Shown: in pieces, positions 16,829-33,771 of the stretch
Position numbering within the stretch: position 1 is the stretch's first letter
Layout of the letters: each line of letters starts with the position of its first letter
Assembly (NCBI GenBank): GCA_021324825.1
Contig: JAJPII010000026.1
Coordinates: 29,735 to 93,734, forward strand
From: Spartobacteria bacterium
GTDB taxonomy: Bacteria > Verrucomicrobiota > Verrucomicrobiia > Chthoniobacterales > Chthoniobacteraceae
Reading direction: 5' to 3'
Length of the DNA stretch: 64,000 nt
Notes under the pieces: generated by a model
Told to the model about the DNA's origin: nothing
The model's input: only the letters and a program-made list of their open reading frames with translations
Databases searched by the model: none
Position numbers and translations under genes: made by a program

Positions 16829-17590
16829 TTGGCTGCATTTCGACCATTACTGTTTTATTGCGCGGCCTTTCTGCTGGCCGGCTCCGCCCATGCCCAGCGG
16901 AAGTTCGACTTCGCGCGCGATTCCTTCGCCTTCGCCAACGACACGCTCTGGGCTTATTCCATCGATGCGCAGGGGAATCTCCACATCCGCCAGCGGGCCA
17001 GGCCGCCGGAGTATTCCAGGCGCTGTTTCGTCCTGTGCCGGGCGGCCATCGAGTTTTACCGGTTCGTCCGGTTCGACCCGGGCTCGCCGAAGCTCTCCGA
17101 CGCCGAATACCTGCGGCGCATCCGCCATGTCTGCCGCATCCCGGTCTGGTTCCCGCCGAGGGAACATGTGGTCATCCCCGGTTACGCGGACTTGCGATCC
17201 TTCTCGAAGGCCTACCAGCGCGTATTGGAACAAGAGCTCGGGAACTGGTGGCCCAGCTATTTCCGCGTGGGGAACTGGCGCATGGCCCTCCCATTCCCCA
17301 GAATCTGGCAGAAGAAGCTGGCAAACCAGCTCGCCGCGCGGCTGGACAAAGGCGCCATCCAGGCGGTCTTCATGACGTCTTTCCGGCCGCTGAACCATTG
17401 CGTCATCGCCTACGACTACAAGCGGACGCCCGGCGGCATCCGCTTCCAGGTCTATGACCCGAACACCTCGAAAGCTCCCAGCACCCTGACCTTCGACCGG
17501 GAATCCAGTTCCTTTCTTTTTGGGAGGACGACCTATTTCAACGGAGGCGCGGTGAATTGTTTCGAGGCGTACGTCGCCCCCTGGAAATAA
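16829..17590 (+). CDS. Secreted protein, possibly papain-like/C39-like
   Basis: A 253-residue protein from a TTG start with signal peptide PLLFYCAAFLLAGSAHA, cleaved before QRKF. The mature part has SRRCFVLCRAAIEFYRF and later LNHCVIAYDYK...VYDPNTS. A Cys near the N-terminus of a helix, a His in a strand followed by a hydrophobic Y-Y pattern, and Asp-Pro-Asn in the next strand is the order of the catalytic Cys, His and Asp/Asn of papain-like C39 peptidases. This is inference from motif order only; I cannot name a family. It is monocistronic between unrelated genes. If the reading is wrong it is simply a secreted protein of unknown function. Confidence 0.5.
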   Translation: MAAFRPLLFYCAAFLLAGSAHAQRKFDFARDSFAFANDTLWAYSIDAQGNLHIRQRARPPEYSRRCFVLCRAAIEFYRFVRFDPGSPKLSDAEYLRRIRHVCRIPVWFPPREHVVIPGYADLRSFSKAYQRVLEQELGNWWPSYFRVGNWRMALPFPRIWQKKLANQLAARLDKGAIQAVFMTSFRPLNHCVIAYDYKRTPGGIRFQVYDPNTSKAPSTLTFDRESSSFLFGRTTYFNGGAVNCFEAYVAPWK

Positions 17591-17660
17591 AAGGCTCTCA
17601 ATTCTGGCGCCGTGGACGTGGAAGGCACGGTTCTAGCTGGTTGGAAGAGAAGTGCTGACG

Positions 17661-18587
17661 ATGAGTGCCAACGTTTCCGCGGAAGAACAGGAGCAGATTC
17701 TCCAGACGATTGAGATGTTCGAGGTCATCGCGCAGGCCAACCCGAACGATTGCCAGTCGCTGGAGATTCTGAAAGACGCCTACTGGAAACTCGGGCGGCA
17801 GAAGGAGGCCCTCACCGTCACCCGCAAACTTGCGGATACCTACACCTCCATGGGGCAGTATTCTTCGGCGCTCCAGGAATACGAAGGCATCCTGCAAAAG
17901 GAGCCGAACTCGCCCGAAGTCGCCGCGCTGCTCGAGGAAGTCACGGCCAAGCTTCAGCAATCCGGCAACAGCGAATCCCCGGCCGCCGTTTCCACCAATC
18001 ACGGCGGCGCCATAGCCCTGGACTTCGGCAGCCTGGCCCAGGACGCCGACCTCATCACCACGGAGGCCACCCAGCGTGGCGAGACCGTCCGCAAGGAGAT
18101 CATCCACAATCTCGACAACGACGGCAACGAGCCGCTGGCCAAATTCCTCATCCAGCACCGGCTGGCGCCGGAGGACGTGGTGCATCAGGCGATGGAGCAC
18201 GTCCAGAAGACGAACAAGACCCTCGGCGGCCAGGCGCTCGCGGCCTCCCTCATCGACGAGATCGCCAAAAGCCACGCCGTCTCCCTGGACGCCCTCCTGT
18301 GCGGCATCCTCGAACGCTCGAAGTTCGCGTTCATCCCGCTCGATTACTACGACGTGGACCGCCAGATCGTCAAAATGCTCCCCGAAAGCCTGACCCTGGG
18401 CCGTCTCATCGCCCCTTTTGACATGATAAGCCGCACCGTCATGGTCGCGATGGCCAACCCCTTCGACGTCATGGGCAAGGAGGCGGTGCAGCAGCTTTTC
18501 GACTACAACATCCAGTGGCATCTCGCGGCGCCCGCGGCCATCTGCAAAGTGCTGCGCGACACGTACCGCCTGGACGCGCGCGACTAG
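17661..18587 (+). CDS. TPR protein with GspE N-terminal-like (MshEN) domain
   Basis: A 308-residue cytosolic protein. Residues 1-100 form about two to three tetratricopeptide-type helix pairs (LEILKDAYWKLGRQKEALTV, MGQYSSALQEYEGILQKEP). Residues about 205-308 (IPLDYYDVDRQIVKMLPESL, GRLIAPFDMISRTVMVAMANPFDV) match the MshEN-type domain found at the N-terminus of PilB/GspE ATPases, a fold that in some relatives binds cyclic di-GMP. The ATG at 17661 follows GGAAGAGAAG. It is 13 bp upstream of a GspE-type ATPase gene, so it is probably an adaptor of that ATPase. It carries no Walker motif. Confidence 0.75.
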   Translation: MSANVSAEEQEQILQTIEMFEVIAQANPNDCQSLEILKDAYWKLGRQKEALTVTRKLADTYTSMGQYSSALQEYEGILQKEPNSPEVAALLEEVTAKLQQSGNSESPAAVSTNHGGAIALDFGSLAQDADLITTEATQRGETVRKEIIHNLDNDGNEPLAKFLIQHRLAPEDVVHQAMEHVQKTNKTLGGQALAASLIDEIAKSHAVSLDALLCGILERSKFAFIPLDYYDVDRQIVKMLPESLTLGRLIAPFDMISRTVMVAMANPFDVMGKEAVQQLFDYNIQWHLAAPAAICKVLRDTYRLDARD

Positions 18588-18600
18588 AAGTCATGAGGTC

Positions 18601-20316
18601 ATGAGCATCAAATCCTTCGGAGAACGGATAGCGGATGTCCTGATCGAGGACGGCCTCCTCCTGCCGAGCCAGCTCGACGAGGCGATGGACATCCAGAAGA
18701 AGCAGGGCGGCCGGCTCCTGAAGCTCCTGACCGACAAGCAATACGTCACCGAGCAGGACATGGTCATCAGCATGGGCCGCTGCCTCGACACGCCGCCCAT
18801 CAATCTCTCCAAGGTCCGCGTCCCCGAAGAGATACTCGACATCGTGCCGAAGGAGATGGCGCGCGCGTACAAGCTCGCCCCCATCTGCAAGCTGGGGAAC
18901 AAGCTCTTCGTCGCGATGGCCGACCCGCTCAACGTCCTGGCGCTCGACGACTTGCGCCAGCGGACGAAGCTCGAGATCGTCCCGATGATAACCACCGAGC
19001 GGAGCGTGAACGAAGCGCTCAGCGGGGTGAACAGCGCCGGCGCGGCGATGGACCAGATGTTGAAGGAAGCCGCGGCGTCCGGCAGCGCCGAGGTGGAGGA
19101 GGTGACCAACAAGCGGGAGGACATCGACCTCGACCGCCTGGCGCACGAGAGCGAGGACGCCCCCGTGGTCAAGATCGTCAACCTCATCCTCGTGCAGGCG
19201 CTCAAGGAAAAGGCGTCGGACATCCACATCGAGCCGTTTGAGAAAACCTTGAAACTCCGGTACCGCGTGGATGGCGCGTTGATCGAAGCCAGCTCCCCGC
19301 CCAAGGCGCTCCAGCTTCCCATCGCCTCCCGCATCAAGATCCTCGCCGGACTCGACATCGCCGAACGCCGCCTCCCGCAGGATGGCCGGTTCCGCATCCG
19401 CGTCTCCGGCAAGGAAGTCGATCTCCGCATCTCCGTCCTCCCCACCGTGCATGGGGAGAAGATCGTCATCCGTCTGCTGGACAAGGGCGCCCTTTCCGGC
19501 AGCGTCGAGCAACTCGGCATGGACGAATACACCCTCGCCCAGTTCCGCAAGGCCATCGACGCCCCGCACGGCATGATCCTCGTCACCGGCCCCACCGGCT
19601 CGGGCAAGACGACGACCCTCTACTCCGTCCTCCAGGAACTCAACAGCCCGGAATACAACATCGTCACGGTCGAGGACCCCATCGAATACCAGCTGCCCGG
19701 CGTCAACCAGGTCGCGGTCAAGAGCGACATCGGCCTCGACTTCGCCAGCGCCCTCCGCTCGATCCTCCGCCAGGACCCCGACATCGTCATGATCGGTGAA
19801 ATCCGCGATAACGAGACCGCGGACATCGCCGTCAAAGCGGCCCTCACCGGCCACCAGGTGCTGAGCACCCTGCACACGAACGACGCCGCCGGCGCCATCA
19901 CCCGTCTCGACGACATGGGCATCGAGCCGTTCCTTATTTCCAGTTCCATCCTGCTCGCCTGCGCTCAACGGCTTGTCCGCCGCATCTGCCCGAACTGCCG
20001 GGAGGAGTTTTCGCCCGACCCCGAAACGCTCTCGAAGCTTTCCATCGAGGATGGGGAAGACTCCGTCTTCTACCACGGCGTCGGGTGCGACCGGTGCAAA
20101 CGGCGCGGGTATCTCGGGCGCGCGGCGATCATCGAAGTGCTGCCCGTCTCCGAGACGATCCGCCGGCTCATCATCAAGCGCGCCTCGGCGGCCGTCATCA
20201 AAAACCAGGCGACCAGCGAAGGAATGAAAACCTTGCGGATGGTTGGCATTGACAAAGCGCGCGAGGGGATTACGACTTTAGAGGAAGTCTGCCGGGTAAC
20301 GGCGGAGGACCACTAG
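18601..20316 (+). CDS. GspE/PilB-type hexameric secretion ATPase (copy 1)
   Basis: A 571-residue assembly ATPase. An MshEN-type N-terminal domain (1-150) is followed by the T2SSE core: EKASDIHIEPFE (Asp box), Walker A GPTGSGKT at 330-337, VEDPIEY, Walker B DIVMIGEIRD at 394-403, and the His box [10 protein letters not shown] four-cysteine zinc site (CPNC...CDRC) is present near residues 460-500, as in PilB/GspE. The enzyme would power pseudopilus or pilus extension at the inner membrane. It is encoded with a TPR/MshEN protein upstream, and its TAG overlaps the GTG of the roadblock-like gene (TAGTG). There is no PilC or pilin in this operon, so it may serve a machine encoded elsewhere. Confidence 0.93.
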   Translation: MSIKSFGERIADVLIEDGLLLPSQLDEAMDIQKKQGGRLLKLLTDKQYVTEQDMVISMGRCLDTPPINLSKVRVPEEILDIVPKEMARAYKLAPICKLGNKLFVAMADPLNVLALDDLRQRTKLEIVPMITTERSVNEALSGVNSAGAAMDQMLKEAAASGSAEVEEVTNKREDIDLDRLAHESEDAPVVKIVNLILVQALKEKASDIHIEPFEKTLKLRYRVDGALIEASSPPKALQLPIASRIKILAGLDIAERRLPQDGRFRIRVSGKEVDLRISVLPTVHGEKIVIRLLDKGALSGSVEQLGMDEYTLAQFRKAIDAPHGMILVTGPTGSGKTTTLYSVLQELNSPEYNIVTVEDPIEYQLPGVNQVAVKSDIGLDFASALRSILRQDPDIVMIGEIRDNETADIAVKAALTGHQVLSTLHTNDAAGAITRLDDMGIEPFLISSSILLACAQRLVRRICPNCREEFSPDPETLSKLSIEDGEDSVFYHGVGCDRCKRRGYLGRAAIIEVLPVSETIRRLIIKRASAAVIKNQATSEGMKTLRMVGIDKAREGITTLEEVCRVTAEDH

Positions 20317-20918
20317 TGACTGCATCCCGCATCGACGGCGCGTTCATCCAACTCCGTCTCGCAGCCATCGCGCGCGAGCTTCCTCCGGGGTCGGCGGACG
20401 GCGCGCTTCCCGAAACCCTACGGATATCCGTTCCATTCGCGTGGATCGAGCCGCAGCTTGCAAAAGGCGCGGTGGAACTCCCGCGCGACCGCTTCGTGGA
20501 ATCCCTGCCCGTCGAATGGCGGCCCCGCTTCCACCTCGCCGAAAACGTCTCCCTCCCGCTCGAGGAAATCCTCCTCAATCTGCCCGGGAATAATTCCTCC
20601 GAAGAAACGCCCCCTACGCCTTCCGCTCCCGCGCCCGATATCAAGGAAATAGCCGGCCTCATCCGCGCCCTTCCCGGCCTGGAGGGATGCGTCCTCCTCT
20701 CGGGGACGAACGGCGCGAGCGCGGGGGAAGTCCCGGTTCATCCCGACGATGTCCGGAAGATCGCCTCCAGCCTCGACGGCGCCGGCATGGCCGCCACCTT
20801 TCTAGTCCGCGACCGGTTTTGCCTTTGCGTCTTCCACGGCGGCGGCCGGGTCGGATTCGAGCCGGGCGTTCTGGAAAAGCTGGACTCCATCACCGGGAAA
20901 ATGGCAAAAGGAGAGTAA
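20316..20918 (+). CDS. Roadblock/LC7-like regulatory protein
   Basis: A 200-residue protein starting with GTG overlapping the ATPase stop. Residues 1-85 contain IDGAFIQLRLAAIARELPP, RISVPFAWIEPQLAKGAVELP and VSLPLEEILLNLP, a domain I associate with Verrucomicrobial roadblock proteins. After a Pro-rich linker (about 92-105), residues 108-200 (EIAGLIRALPGLEGCVLLSGTNG...) have the helix-strand pattern of roadblock/LC7 (MglB-like) domains. MglB-type proteins are GTPase-activating partners of MglA-type small GTPases, and the next gene encodes an MglA-like protein, so partnership is very likely. Confidence 0.7.
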   Translation: MTASRIDGAFIQLRLAAIARELPPGSADGALPETLRISVPFAWIEPQLAKGAVELPRDRFVESLPVEWRPRFHLAENVSLPLEEILLNLPGNNSSEETPPTPSAPAPDIKEIAGLIRALPGLEGCVLLSGTNGASAGEVPVHPDDVRKIASSLDGAGMAATFLVRDRFCLCVFHGGGRVGFEPGVLEKLDSITGKMAKGE

Positions 20919-20922
20919 CTCC

Positions 20923-21558
20923 ATGCCCATCATCAATTTCACAACCCGCGAAGTGCGGCTGAAGATCGCCCTTCATGGAACCCCGGCGTCCGGCAGGGCG
21001 GCCACCCTCGCCAAGCTGCACGCCGACAGCCCCGCCTCGAAAGGCGGCCTCGCCATACCGGAAGACGCGAAGGACAAGCCGTTCTCCTTCAGCTTCTCCG
21101 GCGAAGACCGGAGCGTTTTCGAAGGATTCACCACGCGGTTCGAGTTTCATTCCCTGACGGGCGGTCCGTCTTCGCCCGATTCCGTGCGGCTCCTGCTGCG
21201 GGATGCGGACGGAGTCGTCTTCGTAGTCGATTCCCAATGGGAAAAACTGGAGGACAACCTCCAGAGCCTCCAGGAGGCCGAAGAGGCCCTGAAAGCAGAC
21301 GGCTCCGCGCTGGATGAAATCCCCTGGGTTCTCCAGTACAACAAACGCGACCTCCCGGAAGTAGCCCCGGCCAACTACATCGACTTCCTTCTCAACAACC
21401 GCTCGAAACCCGCGCCCGTCTTCGAAACCGTGGCAACCACGGGAGACGGCATTCCCGCGCTGCGAAAGGCAATCGTGGAACGAGTCCTCGCCCGCTTCGC
21501 CGAAGAATATGGGCAGAAACTCGTGGCCCCGGAAGAGCAAGCCTCCTCCGCCGCGTAG
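20923..21558 (+). CDS. MglA-like Ras-family protein with degenerate P-loop
   Basis: A 211-residue protein whose whole length follows MglA: INFTTREVRLKIALHG (MglA INYSSREINCKIVYYG), RFEFHSLTG, LLRDADGVVFVVDSQWEKLEDNLQSL, IPWVLQYNKRDLP. The G4 motif NKRD (140-143) is intact. The P-loop at 19-26 reads GTPASGRA in place of GPGLCGKT, so the invariant Lys is Arg and the Thr is Ala, and the switch II segment reads SLTGGPSS in place of TVPGQ. It therefore probably cannot bind or hydrolyse GTP in the usual way and may be a pseudo-GTPase scaffold. AAAGGAGAG precedes the ATG by 8 bases. It is the last gene of the ATPase operon. Confidence 0.85.
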   Translation: MPIINFTTREVRLKIALHGTPASGRAATLAKLHADSPASKGGLAIPEDAKDKPFSFSFSGEDRSVFEGFTTRFEFHSLTGGPSSPDSVRLLLRDADGVVFVVDSQWEKLEDNLQSLQEAEEALKADGSALDEIPWVLQYNKRDLPEVAPANYIDFLLNNRSKPAPVFETVATTGDGIPALRKAIVERVLARFAEEYGQKLVAPEEQASSAA

Positions 21559-21768: not shown

Positions 21769-21796
21769 TTGCGGGGCTGCTTTTTGTGGTTAAAAT
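21769..21796 (+). promoter_or_regulatory. Putative promoter of the TetR-efflux operon
   Basis: TTGCGG (21769-21774), 16 bases, TAAAAT (21791-21796). Transcription would start near 21803, which argues against the ATG at 21795 and the GTG at 21786 as starts of the tetR gene. Confidence 0.35.
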
Positions 21797-29274: not shown

Positions 29275-29307
29275 CCGGTGTGCGCGGCGCAGTGGAGGCG
29301 CATCCTC

Positions 29308-31002
29308 GTGACAAACCCCGAATACGTCCTTGAGATCCTGGTCGACGTAGGGATCGTAACCCGCAAACAGGTGGATGCCGCGCGCGCGGAGGCCAAGGAC
29401 GGCGACGTCATCGCCGCTTTGATCAACCTCGGGATCGTCACGGAGGAGGACATCATCCGGGCGCTGTCGGGGCACGCCACGATGGACTTCGTGGACCTGA
29501 CGCAGATGGCGATCAGCGAGGAGGTCATCTCCCTCATCCCCGGCGACATCGCCAGGAAATACCGGGTTATACCCGTGGCGCTGCTGGACACGAGCCTCAT
29601 GGTCGCCATCGACGACCCGCTCAACTTCGACACGTTCGACAACCTGCGCTACGTCCTGAAGCGCGACCTGGATTTCATCTGCGCCACCCCGAGCCAGATC
29701 GACAGTTCCCTCATCAAATACTACGGCAGCGCCGAGGAAGCGGCGGATGTCCTTCGCAAACAGCTCGGCGAGGATATCGAGATCGGCGGCGATATCGCCA
29801 TCGGCGGCGACGGCGGGCAGGAATCGGGCGACGCGCCCATCATCAAGATGGTGACGATGCTCCTGCTGGAAGGGTACAAGAGCCGGGCGAGCGACATCCA
29901 CCTGGAGCCGCTGGAAAAAAGTTTCCGCGTCCGGTTCCGCGTGGACGGCGTGCTGCACGAGATGCAGAGCCCGCCGAAGAAGCTCCAGTCGGCCATCGTC
30001 AGCCGCCTCAAGATCATGACCGGGTCGATGAGCATCGCCGAGAAGCGCCTGCCGCAGGACGGGCGCATCCAGGTGAAGATCGGCAAGAAATCGATCGACC
30101 TGCGCGTCTCGACCATCCCGACCAATCACGGGGAGAGCGTCGTCATGCGTATTCTCGACAAATCGAGCCTCTCGCTCGGCTTGCCCGAACTCGGCTTCCT
30201 CAGCGACGACCAGGAAGTCTTCGAGCGCCTGCTCAATCTGCCGGACGGCATCCTGCTCGTCACGGGCCCCACCGGTTCGGGCAAGACCACGACCCTCTAC
30301 GCGTGCCTCCACTACATCAACAAGCCGGATCGCAAGATCATCACCGTGGAAGACCCCGTCGAGTACCAGATGACAGGCATCAACCAGGTGCAGGTCAATT
30401 CGGATGTCGGCATGACCTTCCCGGCGGCGCTCCGCTCGATGCTGCGCCAGGCGCCGAACATCATCATGATCGGCGAGATTCGCGACGTGGAAACGGCGAA
30501 CATCGCCATCAACGCCAGCCTCACGGGCCACCTCGTCTTCAGCACTCTCCACACCAACGACGCCCCCGGCGCCGTCGCCCGCCTCGTCGATATCGGCGTG
30601 CAGCCGTTCCTCGTCTCCAGTTCCGTGCGGGCCATCATGGCGCAACGCCTCGTCCGCAAGCTCTGCCCGAAGTGCAAGCAGCCCCACTCCCTCTCCGAAG
30701 CCGAGATGCGCGCGCTGCGCATCGACCACGGCCAGTTGGGCGACGCAAACGTCATGAAAGCGGTCGGCTGCGACCAGTGCCGCCACCTCGGCTACAAGGG
30801 CCGGATCGGGATTTTCGAAATCCTGATCATCGACGACGAGACGCGCTTCATGATCAACGACCGCGCTTCGACCCTCCAGATCCGCAAGCGCGCGCGGGAA
30901 CTCGGCATGCGGACGTTGCGCGAGGACGGCGTGCGCAAAGTCCTGGCCGGAAGCACCACGGCGGAGGAAGTCATCGCCGCCACGATGGTCGACGCCGACT
31001 AG
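29308..31002 (+). CDS. pilB: PilB/GspE-type assembly ATPase (copy 2)
   Basis: A 564-residue hexameric motor: MshEN-type N-terminal domain (about 1-140), T2SSE core with [12 protein letters not shown], Walker A GPTGSGKT at 320-327, VEDPVEY, Walker [10 protein letters not shown], His box VFSTLHTND and the zinc tetracysteine CPKC...CDQC. GTG at 29308 is chosen because GGAGG sits nine bases upstream; the frame opens earlier at 29278. It is first in an operon with pilT, a third ATPase, pilC and a pilin, so one of the two PilB-like proteins should drive pilus extension. Which of them is the real PilB cannot be told from sequence. Confidence 0.93.
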
Positions 31003-31015
31003 CGGAGTCTCCTCA

Positions 31016-32080
31016 ATGTCCGCCGCCCCGATGGAAGACCTTCTGCGACTCGTCGTGGAAGAAAACGCCTCGGACCTCCATCTTTCCGCCGGCTCGCCGC
31101 CCGCGTTGCGCATCCGAGGGAGCCTCACGAAGCTCAACGCGCCGCCGCTGACCCCGGAGGACACCGCCGCGCTCGCGCGCGCCATCGCGAGCGAAGACCA
31201 GATGGCCAGGGTCTCGGAGGACGGGAGCGTCGATTTCGCCTTCTCCTTCCACGAGGACCGGTTTCGCGCCAGCGTGTACCGGCAGCGCGGCGCGGTGGGC
31301 GTCGCGTTGCGGCTCATACCAAAGAACCTCATGACGCTGGAGGAGATCGGCCTGCCGCCCGCCGTGCGCAAGCTGCTGGACCTGCCGCGCGGCCTGGTGC
31401 TCGTGACCGGCCCGACCGGTTCCGGCAAGACGACGTCGCTGGCGAGCATGCTCAACGTCATCAACCGGGAGCGGCGCGGGCACATCATGACCATCGAAGA
31501 CCCCATCGAATATTTCCATGCCCACGGGCTGGGCATCGTGAACCAGCGGGAGGTCGGCGTCGATGTCCCCAGTTTCGCGGAAGGCCTGCGCCGCGCCTTG
31601 CGCCAGGACCCGGATGTCATCCTCGTCGGCGAGATGCGCGACCTGGAGACGATGGAGATCGCCATAACCGCCGCCGAGACGGGCCACCTCGTCTTCTCCA
31701 CCCTGCACACCACCGGCGCCGCGCGCACCGTCGATAGAATAGTCGACGCCTTCCCCGCCTCCCGCCAGGAGCAGGTGAGGATACAACTCGCGGGCAACTT
31801 GAAAGCGGTGCTCTCCCAACTCCTCCTGCCGCGGCAGGACGGCAAGGGGCGCGTCGCCGCCTTCGAACTGATGATCAACACCCCCTCCATCGCCACCCTC
31901 ATCCGCGAGAACAAGACCTTCCGGATTGCGAGTGACATCCAGACGGGATCAAAGTATGGTATGGTGTCGCTGGAGGCGAACCTTGCCGACCTGCATCAGC
32001 GCGGGATCATCTCCCGCGACGAGGTGACGGCCAAGGCGCAGGACCCGGAAGCCGCCGCGCAGTTGCTAGGCAAACAATGA
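31016..32080 (+). CDS. pilT: PilT twitching-motility retraction ATPase
   Basis: A 354-residue ATPase without the MshEN domain: [20 protein letters not shown], Walker A GPTGSGKT at 132-139, TIEDPIEY, Walker [19 protein letters not shown], and the C-terminal [17 protein letters not shown] block that matches the PilT AIRNLIRE signature. PilT depolymerises pili, pulling the cell. It lies 13 bp after the second ATPase gene, and its stop overlaps the start of the third (ATGA). Confidence 0.95.
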
Positions 32081-33771
32081 ACGCCAAACAGGTACTCGAC
32101 CTCTTCGTGGAGCGGGGCGTCGTCGATCCCGACCAGGTGGATGACATCGTCCGCGAGATAACCGGCGCCAACCGGGGCGTCCAGGAAGTCCTGGTCGATT
32201 TCGGCTTTGTCACCGAAGAGCAATTTTTCAAGGCCATCGCCGATTCGCTCGGAACCGATTACGTCGACCTGAAGGATTTCGATCCTCCGCCCGAAGTCCT
32301 GCGGCTGCTGCCCGCGGGCCTCGCCCGGCTTCACGGCGCCATGCCGCTCGGGATGAGCGGCGACGCCGTCACCGTCGCGCTCGTCGACCCGATGAACCCG
32401 ACCGCCGGGGACGATTTGCGCTTCGCCCTCGGCAAGAATGTCCACGTCGTCGTCTCGCCCACGCACCAGATCGAGGAACTGCTCCGGACAAAGTACACCA
32501 CGGACATGGCGAACATGGACGAAATCCTCGCGGAGTTCGCCAAGGAAGGCGAAGTCTCCTTCGCGGCGGGCGCCGAGGGTTTCGGCAGCGGCCAGAACGT
32601 CGAGGCCGAAGCCAACGCCACGCCGATCATCCGTTACGTGGACCTGATCCTCTATCAAGCGATCCAGGACAGGGCCAGCGACATCCACTTCGAACCGTTC
32701 GAGAACGAATTCAAAATCCGCTACCGGGTCGACGGCGCGCTTTACGAGATGGCCCCCCCGCCGCGGCACCTGGCTCTGCCGGTCATCTCCCGCGTCAAGG
32801 TCATGGCCAACCTGAACATCGCCGAACGCCGTCTGCCGCAGGACGGGCGCATCCAGAAGTCGATCGGCGGGCGGCAGGTCGATCTCCGCGTCTCCACCCT
32901 GCCGACGCAGTTCGGCGAGAGCGTCGTGCTCCGCGTGCTGGACCGCAGCACCATCAACCTGAGCCTCGAAGCGCTTGGCATGCCGGACTACATCTACCAG
33001 TTCATCCTGGAGACCATCGAACGGCCCAACGGCATCTTCATCGTCACCGGCCCCACCGGCTCGGGCAAGACCACAACGCTCTACGCGTGCCTCAACAAGA
33101 TCAACACCATCGACTCGAAGCTCCTCACCGCCGAAGACCCGGTGGAGTATGACATCGAGGGCCTCATCCAGGTGCCCGTCAACGAGCAAATCGGCCTCAC
33201 CTTCGCCAGGATATTGCGCGCCTTCCTCCGCCAGGACCCGGACCGCATCATGGTGGGAGAAACCCGCGACCTGGAGACCGCGCAGATTTCCATACAGGCC
33301 TCGCTCACGGGCCACCTCGTTTTTTCCACGCTTCATACCAACGACGCTCCCGGCGCGGTCACCCGCTTGATAGACATGGGCGTCGAGCCGTTCCTCATCT
33401 CCTCCTCGCTGGAAGCCGTCCTTGGGCAGCGCCTCATCCGGCGCATCTGCTACAACTGCCGCACCGCGTACGAGCCGACCGAGGCCATCCTCTCCCAACT
33501 CGGCCTCTCCCCGCATGAGATCGGCGACAAGAACTTCTACTACGGCAAGGGTTGCGAGGTTTGCAACCACACCGGCTACAAGGGCCGGAAAGGCATTTAC
33601 GAGTTGCTCCGCGTCAGCGATCCCATCCGCGAATTGATCAACCAGCGCGCGCCGTCCGTGGTATTGAAACAAAAGGCCATCGAACTGGGGATGGTCACCC
33701 TGCGCGAGGACGGCCTGCGAAGCATCTATGACGGGGACACCTCCATCGAGGAAGTCCTCAAGTACACCTGA
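32077..33771 (+). CDS. PilB/GspE-type assembly ATPase (copy 3)
   Basis: A 564-residue motor with the same architecture as copy 2: MshEN-type N-terminus, [11 protein letters not shown], Walker A GPTGSGKT at 325-332, AEDPVEYD, Walker [20 protein letters not shown] and the tetracysteine CYNC...CEVC. Its ATG overlaps the pilT stop. The Walker B variant GETRD (GEIRD in copies 1 and 2) and its place directly before pilC suggest that this copy, not the first gene, may be the partner of PilC. Two intact PilB-like genes in one operon is unusual. Confidence 0.93.

Follow-up and report, generated by a model that had tools for sequence, protein, structure and literature searches.

The window, a stretch of 64,000 nucleotides from contig JAJPII010000026.1 of a Spartobacteria bacterium, carries the gene of a 211-residue descendant of the polarity GTPase MglA, and the reading best supported by its sequence is that this protein is a pseudo-GTPase. 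It lacks the residues of the phosphate, Mg and hydrolysis motifs, retains a predicted G fold, and shares the loss of its nucleotide-binding motifs with the other members of a six-member clade. Its gene is the last of a four-gene set that encodes a TPR-MshEN protein, a PilB/GspE-type ATPase, a short protein that we call ORF3, and the MglA-like protein; the first two genes are 13 bases apart, the second and third overlap by one base, and the last two are 4 bases apart. The next gene downstream of it is a TetR regulator at 21786. The features discussed below are as follows.

17652..18587, + strand: TPR protein with a C-terminal MshEN domain (PilB N-terminal type), first gene of the operon; Pfam TPR_19 at 26.9 bits and MshEN at 34.2 bits, both above cut-off
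18601..20316, + strand: PilB/GspE-type motor ATPase; T2SSE at 474.2 bits, Walker A GPTGSGKT and DIVMIGEIRD intact
20316..20918, + strand: ORF3, a short two-part protein with one repeat module and, at the C-terminus, a putative eroded roadblock-like domain; its start codon shares one base with the PilB stop
20923..21558, + strand: MglA-derived predicted pseudo-GTPase, 211 aa
20977..21000, + strand: P-loop of that protein, residues 19-26, GTPASGRA (canonical GxxxxGKT), from the codons and the clade state
21151..21165, + strand: switch II, residues 77-81, SLTGG (canonical TVPGQ), from alignment
21340..21351, + strand: G4 guanine-base motif NKRD, residues 140-143, invariant in the clade

The open reading frame of the MglA-like protein begins with ATG, and AAAGGAGAG, a good ribosome-binding site, stops 7 bases upstream of it. 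In a phmmer search against the PDB, the protein matched M. xanthus and Thermus MglA with E-values of 1.8e-28 to 2.6e-28, over as much as residues 1-193. Its identity to MglA is 30-35% along the full length, which bears out the claim of the earlier note that it is MglA-like throughout. The motifs described in that note are confirmed as well. The codons GGA ACC CCG GCG TCC GGC AGG GCG spell GTPASGRA, in which Lys25 and Thr26 of the canonical P-loop are Arg and Ala, and the alignment places NKRD at residues 140-143 and SLTGG at residues 77-81, where the catalytic Gln of TVPGQ has become Gly. A further change, which the note did not contain, is that of the G2 Arg-Thr pair to Lys52-Pro53; the G2 arginine finger and the adjacent Thr are a Group 1 feature according to the available part of a survey of prokaryotic Ras proteins (PMC4316618).

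Among the marks of the MglA family of small GTPases, full-length G-domain similarity and the G4 motif [NT]KxD are present in the window protein, and G1 GxxxxGK[T/S], the G2 arginine finger with its Thr, G3 TVPGQ/GTPGQ and a coupled MglB are missing. Compared with the polarity GTPase of M. xanthus and Thermus (PDB 5ymx, 3t1o), it has in common the G-domain fold, similarity along the full length, NKRD and the operon position seen within the order, but differs at Lys25, Thr26, the G2 Arg-Thr pair and the Gln of TVPGQ, and no MglB gene was found. The AlphaFold model (pLDDT 79.7, pTM 0.80, with residues 46-48 below pLDDT 50) is closer to M. xanthus GDP-bound MglA (TMq 0.82-0.85) than to GTPgammaS-bound or GTPgammaS/MglB-bound MglA (0.77-0.80), this being a single model without a control. 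Given its likeness to the GDP-bound protein, the model speaks against a form frozen ON. A PHROGs search with the protein gave no match.

The altered P-loop is conserved among the closest relatives of the protein. In the best 120 of 5617 homologues, the P-loop ends in GKT in 107, GKS in 5, GRA in 6, GRT in 1 and GKK in 1, and PGQ is found in 105; the seven sequences with GR are the window protein and its six nearest matches. The nearest full-length homologues among the matches listed, P0002-P0006, are 59-65% identical to the window protein and all have SGR[A/T]. Together with the window protein they make up what we call the Arg clade. P0007 (305 aa, GRA) looks frame-shifted, with a sequence that diverges from P0003 beyond about residue 160, and is therefore not counted in the clade; P0008 (GKK) was also kept out. 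All six members of the clade have Arg25 in place of Lys25 and have lost the G2 Arg and the catalytic Gln, and PGQ occurs in none of them. Thr26 is lost in five, the exception being P0006 (GRT), and so is the G2 Thr, the exception being P0003; the G2 pair consists of K or E followed by P, A or T. NKRD is invariant. Pairwise identity among the six proteins is 59-84%, and 82 of the 211 query positions are the same in all of them, including R25, seven of seven positions in G4 and four of five in G5.

The Arg clade is monophyletic, with support of 100/99 in a tree in which the motif columns were masked, and its sister is a GKS group with a TIAGE-type switch II (93/86 in a wider tree). Six long-branch rows were omitted from the masked tree, and five, along with 24 near-duplicate canonical loci, from the wider one. 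The earlier note had proposed a check on whether the P-loop is conserved across the clade, and had named an isolated mutation among relatives with GKT as one outcome that would overturn its view. Given that the losses in the P-loop, switch II and G2 are common to six members, the mutation is not an isolated one, and the same state in five other full-length homologues rules out an assembly error too. Elsewhere, the best-match loci in relatives' genomes (L007-L034) have GKT in 28 of 28 and TVPGQ in 27 of 28, with L034 (VAGK) as the exception. Across 213 genomes of the order, only the window's own match exceeded 43% identity, and across 384 genomes of the class only that match reached an E-value of 1e-47. 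For the sister GKS group (query P0021), matches in the 213 genomes had at most 51% identity.

Conservation within the protein was compared with that of canonical MglA in an alignment (A1) of 38 sequences chosen from the best 120 of 5617 homologues. The canonical set comprises 24 of these 38 rows, the others being the six clade members, P0008, five GKS rows, P0015 and P0047. Of 3000 six-row samples drawn from the canonical set, 2753 match the overall identity of the Arg clade. Mean column identity over switches I and II (48-56, 76-84) is 0.657 in the Arg clade versus 0.929 (lowest 0.898) in the matched samples, and over G4 and G5 (138-144, 167-174) it is 0.989 versus 0.824 (highest 0.911). The P-loop, with Arg25 fixed, has a value of 0.875, compared with 0.90 in canonical proteins. 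By this comparison, the phosphate and switch side of the Arg clade is changed and the base side is tightened. The P-loop had been called destroyed in the earlier note. Since the guanine-base motifs are kept, and are conserved above the matched canonical sets, the word fits the phosphate/Mg side but not the base side. Outside the motifs, lobe 2 of the Arg-clade proteins is also conserved above lobe 1 (0.804 versus 0.742), and thus the conservation of G4 and G5 may reflect a protein interface.

The ATPase next to ORF3 scores 659.6 bits with the PilB model TIGR02538 (cut-off 675.65) and 628.2 bits with the GspE model (cut-off 630.25), just under the cut-off in both cases. We favour PilB over GspE as its identity, given that the PilB model scores higher, though also below its cut-off; a T2SSE domain, intact Walker motifs and an MshEN domain mark it as a PilB-type ATPase. 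It has a match at E<=1e-200 in 31 of 57 genomes, its own included. A homologue of the TPR-MshEN protein lies directly upstream of PilB in 27 of the 27 relatives' loci tested (out of 29 PilB loci, with L125 and L128 outside the test). A PilT-family gene (TIGR01420, above cut-off) comes after the PilB orthologue in all four loci scanned (G001, G008, G018, G023), and G013 (L134) has the same PilB-PilT order by eye, with an open reading frame that runs off the locus. The window's genome has pilus machinery, with twelve PilT-profile matches, six of them above cut-off.

A few other observations concern the neighbourhood of the operon. The TPR protein at 17652-18587, in which an MshEN domain without an ATPase is fused to TPRs, is a possible c-di-GMP-reading counterpart of SgmX, a TPR protein of M. 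xanthus. The gene at 16829-17590, upstream of the operon, has counterparts in L071 (49% identity, E 1.9e-75) and L073 (40%, E 2.0e-56), and so the conserved neighbourhood extends further upstream. There is also a second pilus cluster in the window, at 29278-33447, with a PilB-type ATPase (29278-31002), a PilT-family gene above cut-off (31031-32050) and a PilT-profile match under cut-off (32647-33447).

ORF3 has five homologues besides itself. One of them, P0122, comes from a contig whose length, 4,263,133, equals that of the contig with the MglA-like protein P0006, and the contigs of P0125 and P0003 likewise agree (26,286); we take each pair to share a contig. ORF3 aligns with the last repeat module and the C-terminal domain of the long operon protein of relatives; it has 200 aa, versus 554-971 aa in four complete long proteins read out, and is without about 20 residues that its own homologues retain. 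In its AlphaFold model (pLDDT 80.3, pTM 0.44), residues 100-200 resemble roadblock folds, with Foldseek matches that are all weaker than E<=0.001 and phytochrome/GAF folds that score equally. In Pfam, ORF3 matched 0 families, Robl_LC7 included. Among its homologues, P0126 scores 17.3 bits with Robl_LC7 (cut-off 23) and P0122, P0124 and P0125 have no match, and the long protein of syntenic loci scores 23.6 bits in L071, above cut-off, and 11.3 bits in L072, under it. Because hhalign gave a probability of 0.1% between the ORF3 family and MglB, we call ORF3 roadblock-type by synteny and fold only. The earlier note had placed a GspE-type ATPase and a roadblock protein in the operon. The ATPase stands, as PilB/GspE-type; the putative roadblock part is eroded, has no Pfam match in ORF3 itself, and can be recognized by comparison only.

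In six genomes from other families of the same order (G037, G038, G042, G044, G045, G052), one contig carries, in this order, genes for TPR-MshEN, PilB, the long protein, canonical MglA and MglB. TPR-MshEN is upstream in six of six, and the MglA has GKT and TVPGQ in six of six. By its place in this order, the window protein corresponds to canonical MglA, with mglB missing. Given the intact P-loop and the MglB of the syntenic operon in other families, the state in the window looks like a lineage-specific conversion. The window's genome, which is 94.55% complete, gave 0 matches to Robl_LC7, in a search that was above cut-off in 25 of 57 genomes and, among the 28 relatives that match MglA strongly, in 25. 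A search of that genome with an MglB profile, run without a positive control, found none, and no second MglA-type gene was found in it at this level of completeness. A strict rule that the lack of a GAP means the lack of a switch is refuted by family f5 (G039, G048, G055), where the genomes have no Robl_LC7 match yet GKT and TVPGQ are retained; GAP loss alone is therefore insufficient for the motif change. In G055 (L073), a gene that is TolQ/ExbB-like by eye follows the canonical MglA in place of mglB.

Other PilB-linked copies of MglA with altered motifs are found in the window's own family. In three genomes of genus g6 (G005, G016, G021), a second MglA lies 0.4-0.6 kb downstream of PilB. These copies have the P-loops GKG, GKA and GKA, respectively, lack both the G2 Arg-Thr and the PGQ glutamine, and have no MglB beside them in the stretches read; a canonical MglA-MglB pair is present elsewhere in each genome. 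Like the window protein, they lie downstream of TPR-MshEN and PilB without an adjoining MglB match, and have a broken P-loop and a switch II that is not PGQ. However, they keep the P-loop Lys, come from genomes with the canonical pair elsewhere, and belong to a different clade of the tree, within which the three PilB-linked copies are nested (99/97). A single common clade of the Arg group and the g6 copies is compatible with the data (p-AU 0.281), with long branches involved. All four PilB-linked copies found inside the family (G000, G005, G016, G021) are broken (GRA, GKG, GKA, GKA) and none has an adjoining MglB match, whereas the six found outside it are all intact; with so few lineages, we regard this split as a pattern rather than a test.

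In several genera of the family, the stretch that was read beside the PilB gene has no MglA. In G017, G006 and G022 (L146-L148), the gene after PilB encodes the roadblock-type protein in its long form or a part of it, and the stretch read, which in G022 ends with the contig, contains no MglA; canonical MglA with Robl_LC7 neighbours is found elsewhere in these genomes. Further second copies of MglA, with GKT and altered G2 and G3, occur in G025, G035, G011 and G028. In L142 and L143 (from G011 and G028), as in P0127, P0128, P0151, P0152 and P0154, MglA-type proteins with altered G2/G3 have an unusual fusion to a C-terminal PF04828, which we take to be the GFA zinc-binding family.

We consider the chances to be about even that the window protein is a non-cycling MglA descendant that acts as a fixed adaptor, joining ORF3 and the TPR protein to the pilus ATPase PilB. 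The TPR protein, PilB, the roadblock-type protein and the MglA shape are still together, and the GTP chemistry and the GAP are gone; a permanent adaptor is thus the simplest reading. In an MglA descendant without the P-loop Lys/Thr, the G2 Arg/Thr and the catalytic Gln, GTP/GDP cycling is likely lost. We suspect that the protein does not hydrolyse GTP, stays in one state and makes contact with ORF3, the TPR protein or PilB. A guanine nucleotide or base may still be bound in it, in a structural role. Counted in favour of an adaptor are the clade-wide motif loss, the conservation of the partners, the canonical MglA and MglB of syntenic operons and the intact Walker A of PilB, as well as the broken PilB-linked copies within the family, the genome search that found no MglB and no second MglA, and switches that are relaxed beside invariant guanine-base motifs. 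Against it stands the chance of weak nucleotide binding: Arg for Lys is a conservative change, Thr26 is retained in P0006, and the G2 Thr in P0003.

The arrangement could be modelled on the MglA-SgmX-PilB chain of M. xanthus, with the switch removed. There, according to the available part of one report, SgmX is bound by MglA-GTP and matters for the polar location of PilB, and MglA-GTP is cleared from the opposite pole by MglB (PMC7519303). In the accessible portion of another, the M. xanthus changes K25A and T26N, at the same two positions as in the window protein, left MglA undetected on immunoblot, without complementation and without single-cell movement on agarose, and a T26/27N double mutant of another group is reported to be more stable (PMC3000849). 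Since K25A and T26N were undetected, a stable Arg25/Ala26 protein must differ from these mutants. The lineage would need another way to keep the fold stable without Lys25 and Thr26, for which Arg25 or a partner are candidates. In Bdellovibrio, MglA (Bd3734) acts with pili in the absence of MglB and has a TPR protein as binding partner, so that it resembles the window protein in having no GAP, a tie to the type IV pilus and a TPR partner; however, it keeps the GTP-binding residues that the window protein has lost and is argued, in the part of the paper available, to be permanently GTP-bound (PMC3983030).

Some of the same observations would fit a module in decay, in which the GAP was lost, the polarity switch became useless, and the gene and its partner are drifting out of the lineage. 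The relaxed switch regions of the Arg clade, the shortened ORF3 with its missing residues, the genera with PilB and no adjoining MglA, and the failure to find MglB in the window's genome are all consistent with decay. However, six full-length proteins with their level of identity and 82 invariant positions, R25 and most of G4 and G5 among them, as well as the good ribosome-binding site and the 4-base spacing of the window gene, make it unlikely. We are also rather doubtful of a nucleotide-binding protein with a non-standard P-loop, in which Arg25 would hold the phosphates without Mg and the GTPase would be permanently loaded, very slow or inactive. In its favour, Arg25 is fixed in six of six, P-loop identity is near the canonical value, and G4 and G5 exceed the highest of the 2753 matched samples. 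Yet five of the six proteins have lost Thr26, and five the G2 Thr, both expected to be Mg ligands, and K25A abolishes detectable MglA in M. xanthus, Arg not being among the changes of K25 seen in the available part of that study (PMC3000849). That the protein is an ordinary active MglA with unusual-looking residues, switching canonically with another GAP, seems very improbable: the fold, the full-length similarity and NKRD would agree with it, but it has lost the Lys/Thr of G1, the Arg/Thr of G2 and the Gln of G3, and the genome has neither a Robl_LC7 nor an MglB-profile match.

The fixed adaptor may be one case of a more general conversion, which we put forward tentatively. Next to the same pilus-motor gene, bacteria could have made a pseudo-GTPase out of a Ras-family polarity switch on two or more occasions. 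After uncoupling from its GAP MglB, PilB-linked MglA would lose the phosphate/Mg chemistry and turn into a structural subunit that stays permanently in the type IV pilus motor; its guanine pocket would be retained, for structure or to bind a ligand. The pocket would perhaps serve for another guanine nucleotide, e.g., c-di-GMP, as MshEN receptor domains are present in both neighbouring proteins.

From the perspective of protein evolution, the domains pG1 and pG2 of p190RhoGAP are comparable to the window protein in their GTPase-like fold, defective nucleotide binding (predicted for the window protein) and retention by evolution. However, according to the part of the literature source available, they are parts of large eukaryotic proteins, and their binding defects have been measured (PMC5593906), whereas the window protein is a stand-alone bacterial descendant of MglA in a pilus-ATPase operon. 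Among the open-access papers listed, judged by title and the start of the abstract, none dealt with loss of the P-loop in MglA or in another Ras-family protein of bacteria, and the words 'degenerate' and 'pseudo' have 0 occurrences in the main text of the prokaryotic Ras survey (PMC4316618). The pseudoGTPases that did come up in such titles and abstracts are eukaryotic; here the predicted state is found in a clade of bacteria whose relatives still show the ancestral operon. This makes for a natural before-and-after experiment, in which the same pilus motor occurs with a working Ras-type switch and its GAP and with the switch apparently removed. The system could tell whether MglA at PilB needs GTP cycling or only a docking surface, and what selects for a guanine pocket without its phosphate side.
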